A DNA stretch of 64,000 nucleotides from Lysobacter sp. ISL-50 (GTDB lineage Bacteria > Pseudomonadota > Gammaproteobacteria > Xanthomonadales > Xanthomonadaceae), in NCBI RefSeq assembly GCF_018612875.1, contig NZ_JAGGRI010000007.1:186001-250000 (forward strand), in the 5' to 3' direction. The position numbers and the translations under genes are program-made. The notes under the pieces were generated by a model. It ran no database searches. It was not told where the DNA came from and was given only the letters and a program-made list of their open reading frames with translations. Within the stretch, counting starts at the first letter, position 1. Each line of letters starts with the position of its first letter. This document shows positions 12,204-64,000 of this stretch, in pieces.

Positions 12204-13424
12204 ATGAGCCAGTCAAGCCAACCGCCCGCGAGCGAGCAGCCGCAGTCCTTCGCCGATCAAGTGCGCGGCCAGCAGGCCAAGCCGATCGACAAGACCATCG
12301 CCCGGCTGATGGACGATCTCTACGATCAGGGCCCCGGCGCCGACGGTTTCAAACCGTTGAACGCCGAGCAACTGAGCGCGGCCGGCATCGATCCGTCCAG
12401 CCTGGAAAACAAGGACTCGGGTTTTCTCGCGCGCATCTACGGCGACGAACACGGCCACTACGTGCTGGCCTATTCGGGCACCGACGAAGGCAAGGACTGG
12501 GTGACCAATTTCCGCCAGGGCCTGGGCTTCGAGGATGCGCAGTACAACCAGGCCATCGCGCTCGCGCGCGAAGCCAGCGTGGCCTTCGGCGATGAGGTGG
12601 TGATCACCGGCCATTCGCTCGGCGGCGGCCTGGCCGGCGTGGCTTCGATCAGCAGCGGCATTCCGGCGGTGACCTTCAACGCCTCGGGCGTGCACGACAA
12701 GACCCTCGAACGCATCGGCATCGACGCCGACGCGGCCAAGCGCGAGGTCGCCGACAACGGCCAGATCCGTCGTTACGCGGTGAAGAACGAAATCCTCACC
12801 GATCTGCAGGAGCACAGCATCCCGTTGAAATGGGCGATGCCCGACGCGGTCGGACACAAGATCGAACTGCCCGATCCGGACCCGCAATCGTTCTGGGAGC
12901 GCATGGTGCCCGGCAACGGCATCAAGCACGGCGTGCAGATCCACTACATCGAAGCGGTGATCAAGGCGCAGGAAATGGCGATGCCCGGCCCGGAGCAGCA
13001 CGACGCCGGCCGCGGCCGCGTCGCCGGCGAACCCGGCGTGGTGCTGGCGCCGCAGGCACAGCCTGGGCCCGCGGACCCGGCCCATCCCGGCCACGCGCTC
13101 TACGATCAGGCGCTGCGCGGCTTGCGCGGCCTGGAGCCGGGCGCGCTGGATTTCCGCGGCGAGCAAGGCTATCGCAACGCCGCCAGCCACAGCGCGGTGG
13201 ACGCCCGCGCGCAGGGCATGGAGCGCATCGATCACGTCATCCCCGGCCGCGACGGCGGCGGTTTCTTCCTGGTCCAGGGCGGGCTGGACGATCCCGGCCA
13301 TCGCCGCGTGTTCCTCGACCAGCAGCGCGCGGTGTCGCAACCGCCGGACAACGCCGCGCTGGCCCAGGCCGCGCCGGCCGAAGCGCCCGCGCACAGCGAG
13401 CAACGCCGCGCGATGAGCACCTGA
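12204..13424 (+). CDS. putative T4SS effector: lipase domain plus XVIPCD tail
   Basis: The protein has 406 residues and no signal peptide. Residues about 25-270 form an alpha/beta-hydrolase of the lipase-3 kind, with LAYSGTDEGKDWVTNFRQG and the nucleophile elbow GHSLGGGLAG (Ser138). A His in IKHGVQIHY may complete the triad. From about residue 290 the tail has the features of XVIPCD, the C-terminal signal that targets effectors to the Xanthomonadales bacterial-killing T4SS: DPAHPGHALYDQALRGLRGL, then ERIDHVIPG, then FFLVQGGLDDPGHRRV. The prediction is a phospholipase or lipase delivered into rival cells. An ankyrin gene precedes it and an ankyrin/bactofilin-like gene follows. Confidence 0.85.
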   Translation: MSQSSQPPASEQPQSFADQVRGQQAKPIDKTIARLMDDLYDQGPGADGFKPLNAEQLSAAGIDPSSLENKDSGFLARIYGDEHGHYVLAYSGTDEGKDWVTNFRQGLGFEDAQYNQAIALAREASVAFGDEVVITGHSLGGGLAGVASISSGIPAVTFNASGVHDKTLERIGIDADAAKREVADNGQIRRYAVKNEILTDLQEHSIPLKWAMPDAVGHKIELPDPDPQSFWERMVPGNGIKHGVQIHYIEAVIKAQEMAMPGPEQHDAGRGRVAGEPGVVLAPQAQPGPADPAHPGHALYDQALRGLRGLEPGALDFRGEQGYRNAASHSAVDARAQGMERIDHVIPGRDGGGFFLVQGGLDDPGHRRVFLDQQRAVSQPPDNAALAQAAPAEAPAHSEQRRAMST

Positions 13425-13569
13425 GCCGCATCGCCGGCGGCGGCCCGCGCCGCCGCCGGCTGGTCCGAGTTCACGCTTTGCCGGTTCCGATCCGCGCGCG
13501 ATGCGGGATGCGGGGCCGTTGCTTCGTCTGCATAAGGAAGTCCATCTCCCGACAGGACGTTCCCGCGTC

Positions 13570-15381
13570 ATGACGCCGATTTCCTCGCCCGACCTGCCGC
13601 GCGCGCAGGCCGAGCTGCTCAAGCCCGATTCCAGCAACAGCAACCGCCGCCGCGTCGCCGACGCCCACCTCAAGCGCTATCCGCGCGATCCGGTGGTGTT
13701 GTACGCCTACATCGCCAGCCACATGCGCGACACGATCAAGTGGAGCATCGGCAACGACGACCGCACCCGGTATCCGTGGGCGCTGGGCCGCGCGCTGGCG
13801 ACCGCGTTCGAAGTGCTGGCGCAGCCCGATGCGCAGGCCTCGCCGATCCGTCCGGCGCTGGCGCGCGCGACCAACGTCGCCGCCGCGCTGCTGGCGCTGG
13901 AAGACCGCCCCGACGCGGCCGCGCTGGAACAGGCCGGCCTGCGCCTGGACGCGTACAAGGCCCTGGACGCGCAGCCGTTCCAGGACTACGAACGCGAGCA
14001 ATGGTTTCCCGACAGCCACTACCGTGCCGCGCGCGGGCGCTTGCGCGCGTGGCAGGCGGTGCTGGACAGCGAAACCTGCGCGCAGCCGCAATTCGGTTTC
14101 GTCGCGGATTACCTCGAATCGCGCGATCTGCGCTGGGCCTTCGATCCGCTGGTGCTGCGGCCGCAGTTCCAGGCCTGGGCGCGGCGCGAACTGCGCGAAC
14201 GCCGCGGCCGACGCGCCGGCGGCGCGATCGAATTCGATTGCGTGGACTCCTATCGCAATCACGCCACCGTGCCGGAAAAGCAGATGCCGGCCTTGATCGT
14301 CGGCCGCCTGCTCGCGGCCTTGCTCGCCGGCATGCCCAACCCGGTTTCGAACGCGTGGCGGCTGAGCCTGTTCAAGCTGCCCGGCACGGCGATCTATCTG
14401 GATGCCTTGTTCGCTGCCGGCCTGGACCCCAACGCGACCATGCGCGACGGCCATCCCTTGCTGCATTACGCGGTGGAGAAGGGCGATACGGTCGCGGTGC
14501 AGGCCTACCTCGCCGCCGGCGCCGATCCCTTGCGCGAAGTCGGCAACGACAACGCCCTGGATTACGCCAATTCGGTCGCGGTGAAAAAACTGCTGGAAGA
14601 CGCCACGCGCCCGCGCGCGGCGCCGGCCGACGTGGCGTTGTCGCAGTCGGGCGCCAAGCGCCTGAACCCGGCCGAAGCGGATTTCTGGGCCGGCCTGTAC
14701 GGCGACAACGCCGGCGACTTCGACGCCACGCTCTGCGAACTGCAGCGCGCGCCGCCGGAGAGTTGGAACGACGCGCTCGGCGGCGCGCTGTCCCAGCGCG
14801 CGCCGTGGCATCACCTGCTGCTGGCGCGTAGTCTGGCGCTGACCGGCGTGCGTCAGCCGCCGTGCGGAACGCCGGGCCGCGAACCGATGTGGGTCTGCGG
14901 CGATCTGCACATCAACGGCCCCTTGGAACTGAGCCATCCGCTGGTGGTGACCGGCGATCTGACCGTCGATGGGCCGATCCTGGACTGCGACGAAAGCCTG
15001 CTGGTGGTGGCCGGCTCGCTCAAGGCGCGCGCCTTGATCACCGAAGGCGCGCTGCTGGTCGGCGGCGATTGCGAACTGGGCGAATTCCTGTGGGGCGATT
15101 ACAACGATCAGCAGCTGATCGTGCGCGGCGCCTTGTCGGTGCCGTTGCTGGTGTTGAGCGACCACGTCGCCCGCATCGGCGACGAGGACCGGGTCGGCTA
15201 TCGGCTCGACGATCCGGATCAGGCCGGATTGTCGGCCTGGTTCGTGCGCCAGGCCTTCGAGAACGAATGGTTGTCGCGCGATCGCATCGCGCGCTTGTTC
15301 AAGTCCGGCCAGCCGGTGCTGCGCGCGCGCAACGCGCCGACACCGGTGTTCGCCAGCGCGCTGTCGTGCTCGCGCCTGTGA
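13570..15381 (+). CDS. ankyrin plus bactofilin-like beta-helix protein
   Basis: The product has 603 residues from ATG 13570. An in-frame ATG at 13501 would add 23 residues, and neither start has a strong binding site. The N-terminal 270 residues are unrecognised and helical. Residues about 276-340 contain an ankyrin-like pair (LFAAGLDPNATMRDGHPLLHYA, YLAAGADPLREVGND). Residues about 441-534 show short alternating hydrophobic strands (VCGDLHINGPLELSHP, LVVTGDLTVDGPI, LLVVAGSLKARALI) like the right-handed beta-helix of polymer-forming bactofilins. It lies 145 bases behind the XVIPCD lipase. It may be the immunity or accessory partner of that effector, which is unproven. Confidence 0.65.
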   Translation: MTPISSPDLPRAQAELLKPDSSNSNRRRVADAHLKRYPRDPVVLYAYIASHMRDTIKWSIGNDDRTRYPWALGRALATAFEVLAQPDAQASPIRPALARATNVAAALLALEDRPDAAALEQAGLRLDAYKALDAQPFQDYEREQWFPDSHYRAARGRLRAWQAVLDSETCAQPQFGFVADYLESRDLRWAFDPLVLRPQFQAWARRELRERRGRRAGGAIEFDCVDSYRNHATVPEKQMPALIVGRLLAALLAGMPNPVSNAWRLSLFKLPGTAIYLDALFAAGLDPNATMRDGHPLLHYAVEKGDTVAVQAYLAAGADPLREVGNDNALDYANSVAVKKLLEDATRPRAAPADVALSQSGAKRLNPAEADFWAGLYGDNAGDFDATLCELQRAPPESWNDALGGALSQRAPWHHLLLARSLALTGVRQPPCGTPGREPMWVCGDLHINGPLELSHPLVVTGDLTVDGPILDCDESLLVVAGSLKARALITEGALLVGGDCELGEFLWGDYNDQQLIVRGALSVPLLVLSDHVARIGDEDRVGYRLDDPDQAGLSAWFVRQAFENEWLSRDRIARLFKSGQPVLRARNAPTPVFASALSCSRL

Positions 15382-59456: not shown

Positions 59457-60893
59457 TCACTCCACCTCGGCCGCCACGCGCTTGCGCACATCCTCCAACA
59501 TCGCATCCAAAGCCTCGCGGTCATAAACCTTGCCGCGCAACACGAAGGTATCGATCTTCCGAGTCGCGCCGATATCGCGCAGCGGATCGGCATCGAGCAG
59601 AACGATATCGGCGGCCTTGCCCGCCGCGAGCGAGCCGTGCAGCTTGTCCTGCCCCAGGAAGCGCGCGCCGTTGATGGTCGCCGCGCGCAAGGTCTGCAAC
59701 GGCGTCAGGCCGCTTTCGACGAAGCGCTGCATCTCGTCGTGCAGGCCCACGCCGGGGTAATTGAAGGAATTGAGGAAGCCCGCGTCGGTGCCCGCCAGGA
59801 TATTCACCCCCGACTGCTGCAGCAGCGGCAGAATCGCGGCGTCGCGCTCGTAGCGCGCATGCCGGCGTTCGATCGCCGCCGCGTCGTCCTTGGCCGCGCG
59901 TTCAACCCGCCAGGCATAGGTCGCGCGCAGGCCCGGCCCGATGTACTTGAGGTAATCGTCGCCGCGGTGATCGTTTCGATCCAGATAAGTAGTCACGAAG
60001 CTGCCGTTGAGCGTCGGGGTGACCGCGGTGCCGCGCCGGGCCAGGCGCCGGTACGCCGCGCGCGCGGTCTTTTCGTCGAAGCTCGCCTGGATGCGGTTCC
60101 AGCCTTCCTTGGCGTCGATCTCGCCGCGCCGGACCATCGCGCCGATTTCGGCCTCCCGGGTCGAGCCGGCCTTGTACGCGTAGTCGATGTGCTCGATCGA
60201 ACTCAGGCCCGCCGCGCTGACCTCGTCGATGGTCAGCGAGAACGGCACGTGCGCGGACACGCGCAAGCCGCGCGCATGCGCCTGCTTGAGCGCGTCCATG
60301 AACAATTCCGGCGAAAGGGTGTTGTCGGTGATCTTGACGAAATCGACCTTCCAGTCCTGCAACCGGTCCAGGGCCGCGGCGATTTCTTCGTGGCTGCCGA
60401 CTTCGATGTCGCCCGGCCAGATCGATTTGTAGCCCTCCAGCTTCGGGCCCGAGGTGAAGATCGTCGGGCCCTGCAGCGACCCGGCGGCGACCGCGTCGCG
60501 CCATTCGAACACGCTCGGGCTCAGGTCGCCGGCCGCATCGCGCACCGCGGCGATGCCGTGGGCCACGTACAGCGGCAACAGATTCTTGTTTTCCTCGATC
60601 AGCTTGTCGCCGCCGCCGAAATGCACGTGCATGTCCCACAGGCCCGGGATCGCGTACTTGCCTTGCGCATCGATGCTGCGCGCGGCGTCGAACGCGGCGG
60701 CCCGGGTGTCGGCTTCGATCGCGACGATGCGGTCGCCGCGCACGGCGATCAGCCGGTCCGGACGCAACTTGCCGGCGACGACGTCGATCACCGCGGCGTG
60801 GCGGATCAGCAGATCCACCGGTTCGGCGGCCGTGGCGGCGGCGGACGCACACAGCAACAGTAGCGCGGCGGACAGACGGGATTCGATGGGCAT
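59457..60893 (-). CDS. exported amidohydrolase-family protein
   Basis: The product has 478 residues from ATG 60893. A signal peptide covers residues 1-23 (ending TAAE). The amidohydrolase TIM barrel has the metal motif MHVHFGG (His89, His91), later SAHVPFS, SSIEHID and AGTDAGFLN. This resembles imidazolonepropionase-like or dipeptidase-like periplasmic enzymes. The substrate is unknown. The C-terminal beta region (GKAADIVLLDADPLRDI) completes the usual composite domain. Confidence 0.9.
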   Translation of the reverse strand: MPIESRLSAALLLLCASAAATAAEPVDLLIRHAAVIDVVAGKLRPDRLIAVRGDRIVAIEADTRAAAFDAARSIDAQGKYAIPGLWDMHVHFGGGDKLIEENKNLLPLYVAHGIAAVRDAAGDLSPSVFEWRDAVAAGSLQGPTIFTSGPKLEGYKSIWPGDIEVGSHEEIAAALDRLQDWKVDFVKITDNTLSPELFMDALKQAHARGLRVSAHVPFSLTIDEVSAAGLSSIEHIDYAYKAGSTREAEIGAMVRRGEIDAKEGWNRIQASFDEKTARAAYRRLARRGTAVTPTLNGSFVTTYLDRNDHRGDDYLKYIGPGLRATYAWRVERAAKDDAAAIERRHARYERDAAILPLLQQSGVNILAGTDAGFLNSFNYPGVGLHDEMQRFVESGLTPLQTLRAATINGARFLGQDKLHGSLAAGKAADIVLLDADPLRDIGATRKIDTFVLRGKVYDREALDAMLEDVRKRVAAEVE

Positions 60894-61112
60894 GCGGACT
60901 CCTGACAGGGCCGGTGGACGAAAAACGGAAACGGCCCGCCCCATTGTGCCGCAGCGCGGCCGCGCGCCGGGCCGGCGACCGCCAACACGGTCTTATTCCG
61001 CCAGACCCGGGCATGTCCATAATGGCGGCCGTGCCGCGACGATGCGGCCTCAATCGATCCGATCCGATTCGCGCCGGCACGCTGGCGCCGCCGCGCCCAA
61101 GGGAGGGGCTGG

Positions 61113-63296
61113 ATGAGGAAAGTAAAGCCGGTCGCGATACCCGCGTCCCTGCGCAGGCCCGAACTGCTGGACTGGGCCCGCGATATCACCGAGTTCTATG
61201 CCCGGCCGGAGGACATCCGGGCGCGCCAGCGCCCGCCGTTCGAGCGATACGAATCCCTGTTTCTGACGACGGCCACGATCGAGGCCCTGCGGCACCAGTT
61301 CAACGGCAAATGCGCCTACTGCGAATCGGCGTTGAGGCCGCACGAGGAAGTGGTCGAACGGTTCCGGCCGCTCATGGCGGCATGGGATCCCAGCAGCGGA
61401 CAGGAAAGCGCCGACCATTACGGCTGGTTCGCCTTCGAATGGCGCAATCTGATGCTCGCCTGCCGCGACTGCGCTTCGATCAAGCGCAATCAGTTCCCGC
61501 TCGACACGCCGCGCGCCATGCCGATGACGGCATGGCGGCTGGCCGTGGCCAGCGAGGGGGCGATGTTGATCGATCCGTATCGCGATGATCCCGCCCGGCA
61601 TCTTGGCGTTGTCGGCGATGGTGTGGTGGTGGCGCGCAGCGAGAAAGGACAAGCCACGATCAACGTGCTCGACCTCAATCGGCCCGCGCTGGTGGAGGCG
61701 CGGCGGGCGAGCGTGAAGCTCATGCTTGAATTCGTCGTCGCCCAGCTCGCCCCCGGCACGAGATCGCTTTCTGTGGATTTTCTCGAGACGCTCGACGAAA
61801 AGCCGCATTCGGGAACGGTCATGGCAGCGCTGCAGGCGGTTCATGCGGAGTGCCTGCGACGGCTTGGCCTGGTGGTTCGCCTGCTGCGTACGAGCCACGA
61901 CCTGATGCGATTGAATGGACGCGCTGAACTGTGGCGTGAGGTGTCCAAGTGGTTTCTGGCGAAACGCTCGGCCGAATTCGCGGAGAGTTCGCCGCCGCTT
62001 GCCGCATCCTCGCGTAACCCCAGAGTTTCGGTGCGAAGGCTCGATCCCGCTCATGTGCAAAGCCTCCGGATTGAGAACTTCAAGGGCATTGACTCTCTTG
62101 AACTGGATTTCTCCCGGTCGAACTCGCCGGTCGGTGGCACGGCCGGGGCGATGCTGCTGGGGGAGAACGCCGCGGGAAAGAGCACGGTGCTGCAGGCGCT
62201 GGCGTTGGCGCTGATGAGCGAGCGCGAACGAAAATTGAGCCGCGCCCAGGGAGAGGACTTTCTGCCGCGCGAGCGCGAGGGCTGGAAGGTACTTGCCGAG
62301 CGCCCTTCGGTCGAGTTGATGCTGTCGTCGGGTCGCCGCAGGCGATTGGAAGTCGATGCGTTAGGGCGACTCGTGTCGAAGCAGGACAAGAACAGAGTAA
62401 TGATGCTCGCCTATGGCGCGCGTCGTTTCTTCCGCACCACTGCGCCGACGAAAGCGAGCAATCGCAGTCTGTTCGACCCCTTCGCGGTCCTTGAAGACCC
62501 GACGCCCTGGCTTACTCAGGCCCAGACGGGCTTGTTCGATGCAGTGGCTCGGGCCATGCGCGAAATCCTGGCGCTACGCGACGACGGCTATGTCTATCGA
62601 GGCCAGGGCGGGCACGTGCTGGTGCGCGCGCACGGGCGCTCGACCCCGATCGAGCGCATGAGCGACGGCTATCGCGCTCTGTTCGCGATGGCCGTGGACA
62701 TCATGCGCAGGATGGTCGAGGTCTGGGGCAATCTGGAGTATGCGCAGGGCGTGGTATTGATCGACGAGATCGACGTGCACCTGCACCCGCGCTGGAAGAT
62801 CGAAGTAATGTCGGCGTTGCGCCGGGCCATGCCGGGCGTACAGTTCATCGTCACCGCCCACGACGCCCTGTGCCTGCGCGGCATGCGCGACGGCGAGGTG
62901 CAGGTGCTGTACCGCGACGAACACGACCGCATCCGCTTGCGCGAGGATCTGCCCAACATCGAGTTGATGCGCACCGATCAGTTGCTGACCTCGGACCTGT
63001 TCGGCCTGCTCAGCACCGCCCGGCCCGAGGTCGATGCGCATCTGCATCGTTACGCGTATCTGCTCGGCAAGCCGGAACTCGATGCCGGCGAACGGCGCGA
63101 GCGCGAGTCGCTGGCCGGGCATGTGTCGGCGTTGCCGCTGGGCGACACGCCGACCGAGCAGTTGATCGGCGAGGCCACTGAGCGTTATCTGCGCGGGCGC
63201 CGCAGCAAACCCGTGGCCGAACGCGCGAGCATGCGCGAGGACGCCCTGCGCGAAATCGTCGCCTTGCTCGAAGCCGGCGCGGAGCGGGAGGCATGA
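61113..63296 (+). CDS. ATPase with fused degenerate HNH module (PtuA-like)
   Basis: The product has 727 residues, with GGGAGG ahead of ATG 61113. Residues 60-210 resemble the HNH protein encoded next: Cys pairs CAYC (67-70) and CRDC (117-120), and INVLDLNRPALVEARRAS. The catalytic EHYRPK of that family is ERFRPL here (82-87), so the module is probably inactive as a nuclease. The ATPase part has LRIENFKGI, Walker A GENAAGKST (350-358), signature-like RMSDGYRALF (515-524), Walker B GVVLIDEIDVHLHP (546-559) and TAHD (581-584). It overlaps the HNH gene. The arrangement recalls Septu (PtuA/PtuB). Confidence 0.85.
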   Translation: MRKVKPVAIPASLRRPELLDWARDITEFYARPEDIRARQRPPFERYESLFLTTATIEALRHQFNGKCAYCESALRPHEEVVERFRPLMAAWDPSSGQESADHYGWFAFEWRNLMLACRDCASIKRNQFPLDTPRAMPMTAWRLAVASEGAMLIDPYRDDPARHLGVVGDGVVVARSEKGQATINVLDLNRPALVEARRASVKLMLEFVVAQLAPGTRSLSVDFLETLDEKPHSGTVMAALQAVHAECLRRLGLVVRLLRTSHDLMRLNGRAELWREVSKWFLAKRSAEFAESSPPLAASSRNPRVSVRRLDPAHVQSLRIENFKGIDSLELDFSRSNSPVGGTAGAMLLGENAAGKSTVLQALALALMSERERKLSRAQGEDFLPREREGWKVLAERPSVELMLSSGRRRRLEVDALGRLVSKQDKNRVMMLAYGARRFFRTTAPTKASNRSLFDPFAVLEDPTPWLTQAQTGLFDAVARAMREILALRDDGYVYRGQGGHVLVRAHGRSTPIERMSDGYRALFAMAVDIMRRMVEVWGNLEYAQGVVLIDEIDVHLHPRWKIEVMSALRRAMPGVQFIVTAHDALCLRGMRDGEVQVLYRDEHDRIRLREDLPNIELMRTDQLLTSDLFGLLSTARPEVDAHLHRYAYLLGKPELDAGERRERESLAGHVSALPLGDTPTEQLIGEATERYLRGRRSKPVAERASMREDALREIVALLEAGAEREA

Positions 63297-64000
63297 GGTA
63301 TGTCGATCGCGGCCGCATCGCGGCGCCGGCTTCGTTGAGCGATCCCGGCGGCGCGGGTGCGCGCGAACGTGCCGATGCCGAGGTTCACTACCGCGATCCG
63401 CGGGCCGGCGCGTACAAGTTCAAGGCCTACAAGGGCGATGACGTCAAACAGGCATTGCGGACCTTGTTCGACGGCAAATGCGCGTACTGCGAGTCGCGCC
63501 ACGAATCGACTTCGCCGGCCGACATCGAGCATTACCGGCCCAAGGCGGGCGTGGTCGGCGAGGCCGGTCATCGCGGCTATTGGTGGCTGGCGGCCGATTG
63601 GACCAATCTGCTGCGCAGCTGCATCAGCTGCAATCGCGTCGAAGGCCACCGGATCGCGGCGGTCGGCATGAGCGCCGCGCAGATCGCCGCGCAGGCCACG
63701 CGCAACGCCGGCAAGGGCAATCTGTTTCCGATCGCCGCCGCGCGCGCGTTCCAGCCCGGCGACGACTGCGACGGCGAAGACCCGCTGCTGATCGATCCGA
63801 CCCGGCGCGATCCGGCCGCGCATCTGCGCTGGCACGTGGTCGACGATTTGTCGCTGCTGGCGCCGCGTTTCGACGACAGCGGCGCGGATGCCTACGGCGA
63901 GCGTACCGTCGAGATCATGGCCTTGAACCGGCAAGCGCTGGTGGAAGCGCGCAGCCGGCATCTGCAGCGGTTGAACGAGTCGCTGCTGGACTTGGAGGAA
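63293..64000 (+). CDS. HNH endonuclease (PtuB-like), 3' end outside window
   Basis: The frame starts at ATG 63293, overlapping the ATPase stop (ATGA), and stays open to the window edge, giving 236 residues. An intact HNH core is present: CAYC (63-66), DIEHYRPK (77-84, His80 as catalytic base), then NLLRSCISCN (105-114). Downstream LLIDPTRRDPAAHL and IMALNRQALVEARS parallel the N-terminal module of the ATPase. It is probably a DNA or RNA nuclease activated with the ATPase in phage defence. The rest of the gene must be read beyond base 64000. Confidence 0.85.
   Translation, partial: MRYVDRGRIAAPASLSDPGGAGARERADAEVHYRDPRAGAYKFKAYKGDDVKQALRTLFDGKCAYCESRHESTSPADIEHYRPKAGVVGEAGHRGYWWLAADWTNLLRSCISCNRVEGHRIAAVGMSAAQIAAQATRNAGKGNLFPIAAARAFQPGDDCDGEDPLLIDPTRRDPAAHLRWHVVDDLSLLAPRFDDSGADAYGERTVEIMALNRQALVEARSRHLQRLNESLLDLEE

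Follow-up and report, generated by a model that had tools for sequence, protein, structure and literature searches.

What does a PtuB-like HNH module do on a PtuA ATPase that is already followed by a PtuB nuclease of its own? The question is raised by two overlapping genes at the right end of the 64,000-nucleotide stretch of DNA analyzed here (the window), which covers bases 186001 to 250000 of a contig 256,178 bases long in a 5.9-Mb genome. The first gene, fused ptuA (61113..63296, plus strand), encodes a 727-residue protein consisting of a PtuB-like HNH module and a PtuA ATPase. The second gene, free ptuB (63293..64000 and on to 64204 outside the window, L004:10205; plus strand), encodes a 303-residue HNH nuclease; its start overlaps the end of fused ptuA by 4 bases, and its stop lies 204 bases beyond the window end on the same contig.

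The gene pair is a Septu locus with an extra HNH-family module

The PADLOC PtuA model PDLC00288 (733 positions) covers residues 1 to 724 of the fused protein with 863.6 bits, and the PADLOC PtuB model PDLC00328 matches residues 1 to 292 of the free protein with 315.3 bits, the extent of a full-length PtuB. Because the PtuA model spans the whole fused protein, the locus is Septu, in keeping with the original prediction of a Septu-like pair: a PtuA-family ATPase with Walker A and Walker B motifs and an adjacent PtuB-family HNH nuclease with an intact motif form one two-gene unit. The overlapping reading frames and ATPase motifs were also found as predicted. By alignment, Walker A (residues 350 to 358, GENAAGKST) lies at 62160..62186 and Walker B (residues 546 to 552, the strand ending in D551-E552) at 62748..62768, both on the plus strand, and G350, E351, N352, G355, K356, D551, and E552 are invariant across the fused proteins in a 30-row alignment. 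The ATPase had been described as SMC/OLD type, but OLD is imprecise: the best Pfam match of the fused protein is AAA_21, and none of its 11 Pfam matches at E ≤ 1 is to the TOPRIM family, by which an OLD nuclease would be recognized. The NCBIfam models stay below their cut-offs (PtuA equivalog, 111.7 of 500 bits; PtuB equivalog, 44.9 of 150; TIGR02646, 41.5 of 52.15).

The N-terminal module (residues 1 to 285; 61113..61967, plus strand) contains the zinc cysteines C67, C70, C117, and C120, and its predicted homology to the free protein is borne out. A single BLASTP comparison gives 30% identity over fused residues 57 to 229 (E = 1e-17), PADLOC PtuB models also match the first ~220 residues of the fused protein, and a profile built from 30 fused proteins finds solved PtuB chains with its positions 47 to 214 (best value, 4.2e-11). 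The same profile matches solved PtuA chains with a best value of 1.7e-35 and a best stretch of 477 to 604. The AlphaFold2 model of the fused protein, built with 14 sequences (pLDDT 78.8), consists of the folded module, a flexible linker at residues 290 to 307 (61980..62033, plus strand) with pLDDT values below 50, and the ATPase; its pTM of 0.48 leaves the placement of the module relative to the ATPase unfixed. When this model was used in a Foldseek search, all 50 matches listed were chains of Septu or retron PtuA or PtuAB entries, and a fold search with the model of free PtuB returned no match at E ≤ 0.001.

Past the window end, an intergenic tandem repeat lies before the min genes (L004, about 13390 to 13960), and ORF translations across it carry a repeated peptide (SYEIFCGRGFSPDAFRSALL and similar).

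The fused form is uncommon and is followed by a free PtuB in all loci compared

The fused protein is matched in 4 of 398 genomes sampled across the phylum (1e-60), whereas TIGR02646 is matched in 67 of the same 398 (1e-5), the 4 fused-form genomes among them, which agrees with the view that the fused module is unusual. It is found in 8 of 20 genomes of the genus and in 9 of 297 of the sampled family, and PDLC00288 at E ≤ 1e-40 is matched within the class in the source genome only (1 of 369). Among plasmids, matches at 1e-30 occur in 30 of 72,556 records, chiefly from Rhizobium and other alphaproteobacteria, and a search of phages gave no match of the fused protein at 1e-20. Viral contigs hold at least 68 loci, and among those listed, 12 have separate PtuA-like and PtuB-like ORFs and none has a fused ORF according to the HMMs of this analysis. 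The same HMMs detected no HNH module on the ATPases of the ordinary loci L046 to L109, which are part of the TIGR02646 matches; the ordinary PtuA ORFs used for comparison mostly have about 400 to 600 codons. The statement that Septu ATPases are normally without an HNH module stands for most Septu, but the fused form already falls within the PADLOC PtuA models, three of which are long (PDLC00288, PDLC00291, and PDLC00292) and cover it under the plain name PtuA1.

The pair is close to Septu type I (PtuA plus PtuB in PADLOC) in its order of ATPase and then HNH nuclease, in its overlapping two-gene unit, and in that no reverse transcriptase was seen beside it; it differs in that the ATPase has 727 residues with a PtuB-like module at the N terminus, while ordinary PtuA ORFs have no HNH match.

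For comparison, 37 fused-type loci were used. Of the 30 plasmid records, 21 were fetched and nine were omitted, most of them apparent repeats of a fetched record, and L014, L016, and L018, which repeat L005, L007, and L006, were not used. In all 37 loci a free ptuB lies directly downstream of fused ptuA on the same strand, overlapping it in 28. Three loci (L039, L040, and L042) lack the module or have it as a separate ORF; they were left out of the fused counts and kept in the free counts, and the remaining 34 are those with an alignable N-terminal module. In L039, the module is without its N part and is truncated at an IS630 transposase gene; in L040 and L042, an ORF of its own immediately ahead of the ATPase encodes the HNH module, an arrangement that is either a broken fusion or a natural three-gene form.

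Other genes accompany the pair on some plasmids. In 5 of the 21 fetched plasmid loci (L029, L038, L040, L041, and L043), the gene directly after free ptuB, with the same orientation, is annotated as a patatin-like phospholipase, possibly representing a three-gene version. On a Priestia plasmid (L035), the fused pair has as its neighbor a gene annotated as a retron St85 family reverse transcriptase, and on a Rhizobium plasmid (L033), a gene with a reverse transcriptase domain lies near the pair, each on the other strand.

Most fused modules have lost the catalytic histidine

In the fused module of the window, Arg83 (61359..61361, plus strand; motif alignment) stands where the E-H-x-R-P-K motif has its catalytic His, so that the module lacks the catalytic His of H-N-H. 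In the free PtuB, the motif E79-H80-Y-R-P-K84 is intact, with E79-H80, R82-P83-K84, and all four cysteines present. The same pattern recurs among the relatives: the four zinc cysteines and the asparagine of WxN are kept in 34 of 34 fused modules, and the His is kept in only 10, being replaced by Arg (10), Gln (8), Pro (2), Leu (2), Asn (1), or Phe (1). This His is present in 37 of 37 free partner PtuBs, which were chosen by similarity and position rather than by motif, and in 58 of 58 ordinary PtuBs, a set that may be biased toward His by the HMM seeds for finding PtuB-like ORFs, which were chosen with a His-favoring motif. The near-duplicates L011, L013, and L017 are inside the counts of 34 and 37; with these removed, the His is found in 9 of 31 fused modules and in 34 of 34 free partners. 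A study of Septu EcB88 reports that immunity is lost when PtuB H75 or N91 is mutated and that the ATPase and HNH motifs are both required (PMC13096335). H75 probably corresponds to the His column counted here, given the 16-residue spacing to the Asn in the alignment of retron Ec78 PtuB.

Fused modules are often also without the Lys and the second Asn (CxxCN), but these positions were dropped as markers of catalytic death: only 24 of the 58 ordinary PtuBs have His, Lys, and second Asn together, and since ordinary PtuBs vary there too, such losses are weak evidence. Two near-identical Pseudomonas modules (L008 and L011) keep every motif position counted, including His, Lys, and Asn, and may be active nucleases. 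A second active nuclease in the fused module is thus rejected for the protein of the window, on account of Arg83, and not for all of its relatives.

On an IQ-TREE quick tree from which the motif columns were left out, and in which many branches are weak, the His requires a minimum of 4 changes across the fused rows, and 8 losses are needed if it was never regained. The modules of three Rhizobium loci (L027, L032, and L033) lie apart from the other fused modules and near free PtuBs (98 SH-aLRT); they keep RPK or HPK and CxxCN and have lost the His (to Leu, Gln, and Gln, respectively), and they may stem from a second, independent fusion. The question of whether the fused form is a clade thus receives a divided answer: a single clade is not rejected (p-AU 0.588), yet the three Rhizobium modules stand apart in the tree.

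The fused module is maintained by selection

Repeated loss of the His is what would be expected if the module were vestigial, a former second nuclease that no longer has a function and decays as selection on it relaxes, and the truncation at the IS630 gene in L039 and the separate ORFs in L040 and L042 would fit such decay. Nine close pairs of loci were compared for selection on the module. In the six unswapped pairs with usable dS, its dN/dS is 0.05 to 0.23; it is 0.46 in the pair with the allele swap described below and not estimable in two pairs. The fused module is still under purifying selection. These low ratios, together with the four cysteines kept in all 34 modules, argue against decay, and we consider the vestige explanation very improbable.

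The retained positions could instead belong to a split nuclease, in which the fused module supplies the substrate-binding half (zinc site, Asn, and Arg-Pro) and free PtuB gives the catalytic His, the two attacking jointly and the module being neither lock nor sensor. The zinc cysteines and Asn persist in 34 of 34 modules despite the loss of the His, and the free and fused genes are adjacent in all 37 loci. In addition, ordinary PtuAB complexes contain fewer PtuB than PtuA (4:2 and 2-1 according to entry titles), and therefore the two fused modules of a PtuA dimer could each meet one PtuB. However, a half that binds an unchanging substrate should be at least as conserved as the other half, and in 415 of 496 locus pairs (32 loci; the pairs are not independent) the fused cores resemble each other less than the free cores do. 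The retention of the same PtuB across the allele swap also counts against joint attack, which we regard as possible but rather unlikely.

The pair occupies one chromosomal site but is not always present there

All 8 carrier genomes of the genus have the pair at the same place, flanked by an amidohydrolase gene and an M2 peptidase gene; in the window, the amidohydrolase forms the left flank at 59457..60944 on the minus strand (flank comparison and Pfam). The flanks occur without the pair in 7 of the 20 genomes, with a gap of 245 to 338 bases in four, 715 bases in one, and about 2.2 kb containing another gene in two; the remaining 5 of 20 gave no amidohydrolase match within the 10 kb taken. The cassette is optional, its position in the chromosome is fixed, and no integrase was seen there. 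Housekeeping neighbors had been named beforehand as a sign against a defense system. The neighbors are indeed housekeeping genes, but since the gene pair is inserted between them in some genomes and missing in others, they do not refute the defense reading.

Two genomes, G090 (L205) and G138 (L206), have one gene of ~470 to 510 residues at the amidohydrolase-M2 peptidase site instead, with the N terminus MPKNILIFADGTGQ, which we take to be reminiscent of DUF2235-type alpha/beta hydrolases; the site could be a hotspot that accepts different cargo. In two of the 20 genomes (G252 and G217), the M2 peptidase match contains one in-frame TGA each.

The module and the first half of the ATPase were exchanged together in one close pair

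In the nearest relative, genome G1038, the flanking proteins are 96 to 100% identical and PtuB is 96% identical. Its PtuA is a mosaic, with identities of 57% at residues 1 to 215, 29% at residues 216 to 312, 57% at residues 313 to 510, and 96% at residues 511 to 727. At the DNA level, the differing block covers 61029..62649 of the window; identity is 0.616 inside it (980 of 1590) and 0.926 to 0.98 around it, namely 0.954 to the left, 0.926 in the rest of ptuA, 0.95 in ptuB, and 0.98 in the M2 gene. The left edge lies about 85 bases before the ATG, and the right edge, placed to within about 30 to 100 bases, lies near codons 513 to 523, at the M-S-D-G-Y-R motif preceding Walker B. The swapped part thus comprises the first two-thirds of ptuA, that is, the module and the first half of the ATPase.

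Synonymous divergence in this pair (G000/G1038) is likewise raised inside the block (dS 0.92 and 1.30) compared with outside it (0.28 and 0.15). Fast evolution in place is rejected for this reason, and the block is, judging from the divergence pattern, a distant allele brought in by recombination. A chimeric assembly is unlikely as far as can be judged from the assemblies, in which both ORFs are intact and the G1038 locus lies on a 6.06-Mb contig. No comparably sharp step was seen in the other eight close pairs, so that the swap is found in 1 of 9 pairs compared. No donor of the block was found: the G1038 block is 55 to 64% identical over residues 1 to 215 to the other six distinct sequences compared.

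The exchange also bears on a purely structural role, in which the module does no more than tether or cap the PtuA oligomer, filling PtuB sites and limiting the number of live PtuB, without any recognition. Such a role, close to the original idea of a module that docks or doses the free nuclease, suits a fused part that is a complete PtuB-like domain on a flexible linker. It leaves unexplained why the module and the N-terminal half of the ATPase traveled together in the swap and why the module diverges faster, and we think it unlikely.

A candidate control or recognition unit for PtuB

Taken together, the loss of the His and the allele swap point to a control or recognition part rather than a second nuclease. 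The folded, mostly catalytically dead HNH module and the first half of the ATPase would, as read from these sequence comparisons, form an exchangeable control or recognition unit. Free PtuB would then be the sole working nuclease, and the fused pseudo-nuclease would be positioned on or near the PtuA/PtuB assembly via the flexible linker, where it may restrain the live nuclease or present a trigger or substrate to PtuB. Phage infection would lift the restraint, PtuB would cleave nucleic acid, and the infection would be stopped. Recognition would reside in the exchangeable part, made up of the module and the N-terminal lobe of the ATPase, and output in the conserved part, from the signature to the C terminus, with PtuB. 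As a whole, this explanation, in which a dead module controls or recognizes on behalf of a live PtuB that is the only working nuclease, is one that we favor tentatively, as plausible rather than probable.

Type I-A retrons, or Septu type II (Ec78 = Eco7 and Ec83 = Eco4), offer the closest comparison. They share the effector pair of PtuA ATPase and PtuB HNH nuclease, and the fused protein finds its best matches, by fold and by sequence, among solved PtuA chains. They differ in that here no reverse transcriptase is found in the contig flanks by ORF lists and Pfam and the NCBIfam equivalog cut-offs are unreached. A retron or reverse transcriptase past position 64000 had been entertained in the original prediction, but the remaining 6.2 kb of the contig past the window showed neither, as judged from the ORF list and from nine neighbor proteins searched against Pfam. 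The PtuAB proteins of Eco7 together, and neither alone, are reported to arrest growth and deplete tRNA-Tyr (PMC11555353), and the effector of Eco4 and Eco7 is reported to be released by degradation of msDNA (PMC12887533). The fused module and the ATPase N-lobe might play in cis the role that RT-msDNA plays in retron PtuAB. A bolder version would make the locus a stand-alone Septu in which the RT-msDNA lock has been replaced by a dead copy of the nuclease. The pseudo-HNH and ATPase N-lobe would be an exchangeable sensor that silences PtuB and chooses the phage signal that releases it, and lineages would change their phage range by swapping a 1.6-kb cassette through recombination in conserved flanks, with the effector and the genomic site fixed. 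We offer this version as a speculation that is somewhat doubtful as it stands.

A PtuA-like ATPase joined with other nuclease-type proteins is also known from ptuXYZ, but there, in the text available to us, the partners are separate proteins of the DUF262 and RelE types, and the ATPase has no HNH module (PMC11980606).

Implications

Septu itself and the long PtuA models in PADLOC are already known. A search of titles and abstracts, with preprints and most subscription papers outside it, found no published description of an HNH module fused to PtuA or of its His loss or exchange. The locus also shows a trap for annotation, as the profile library calls the protein PtuA and the extra module goes unmentioned. 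For the question of how stand-alone Septu is silenced and triggered, the built-in dead copy of the nuclease is a concrete and removable candidate for a lock or sensor, and the natural swapped alleles of G000 and G1038, which come with the same PtuB, provide a ready-made test of specificity.
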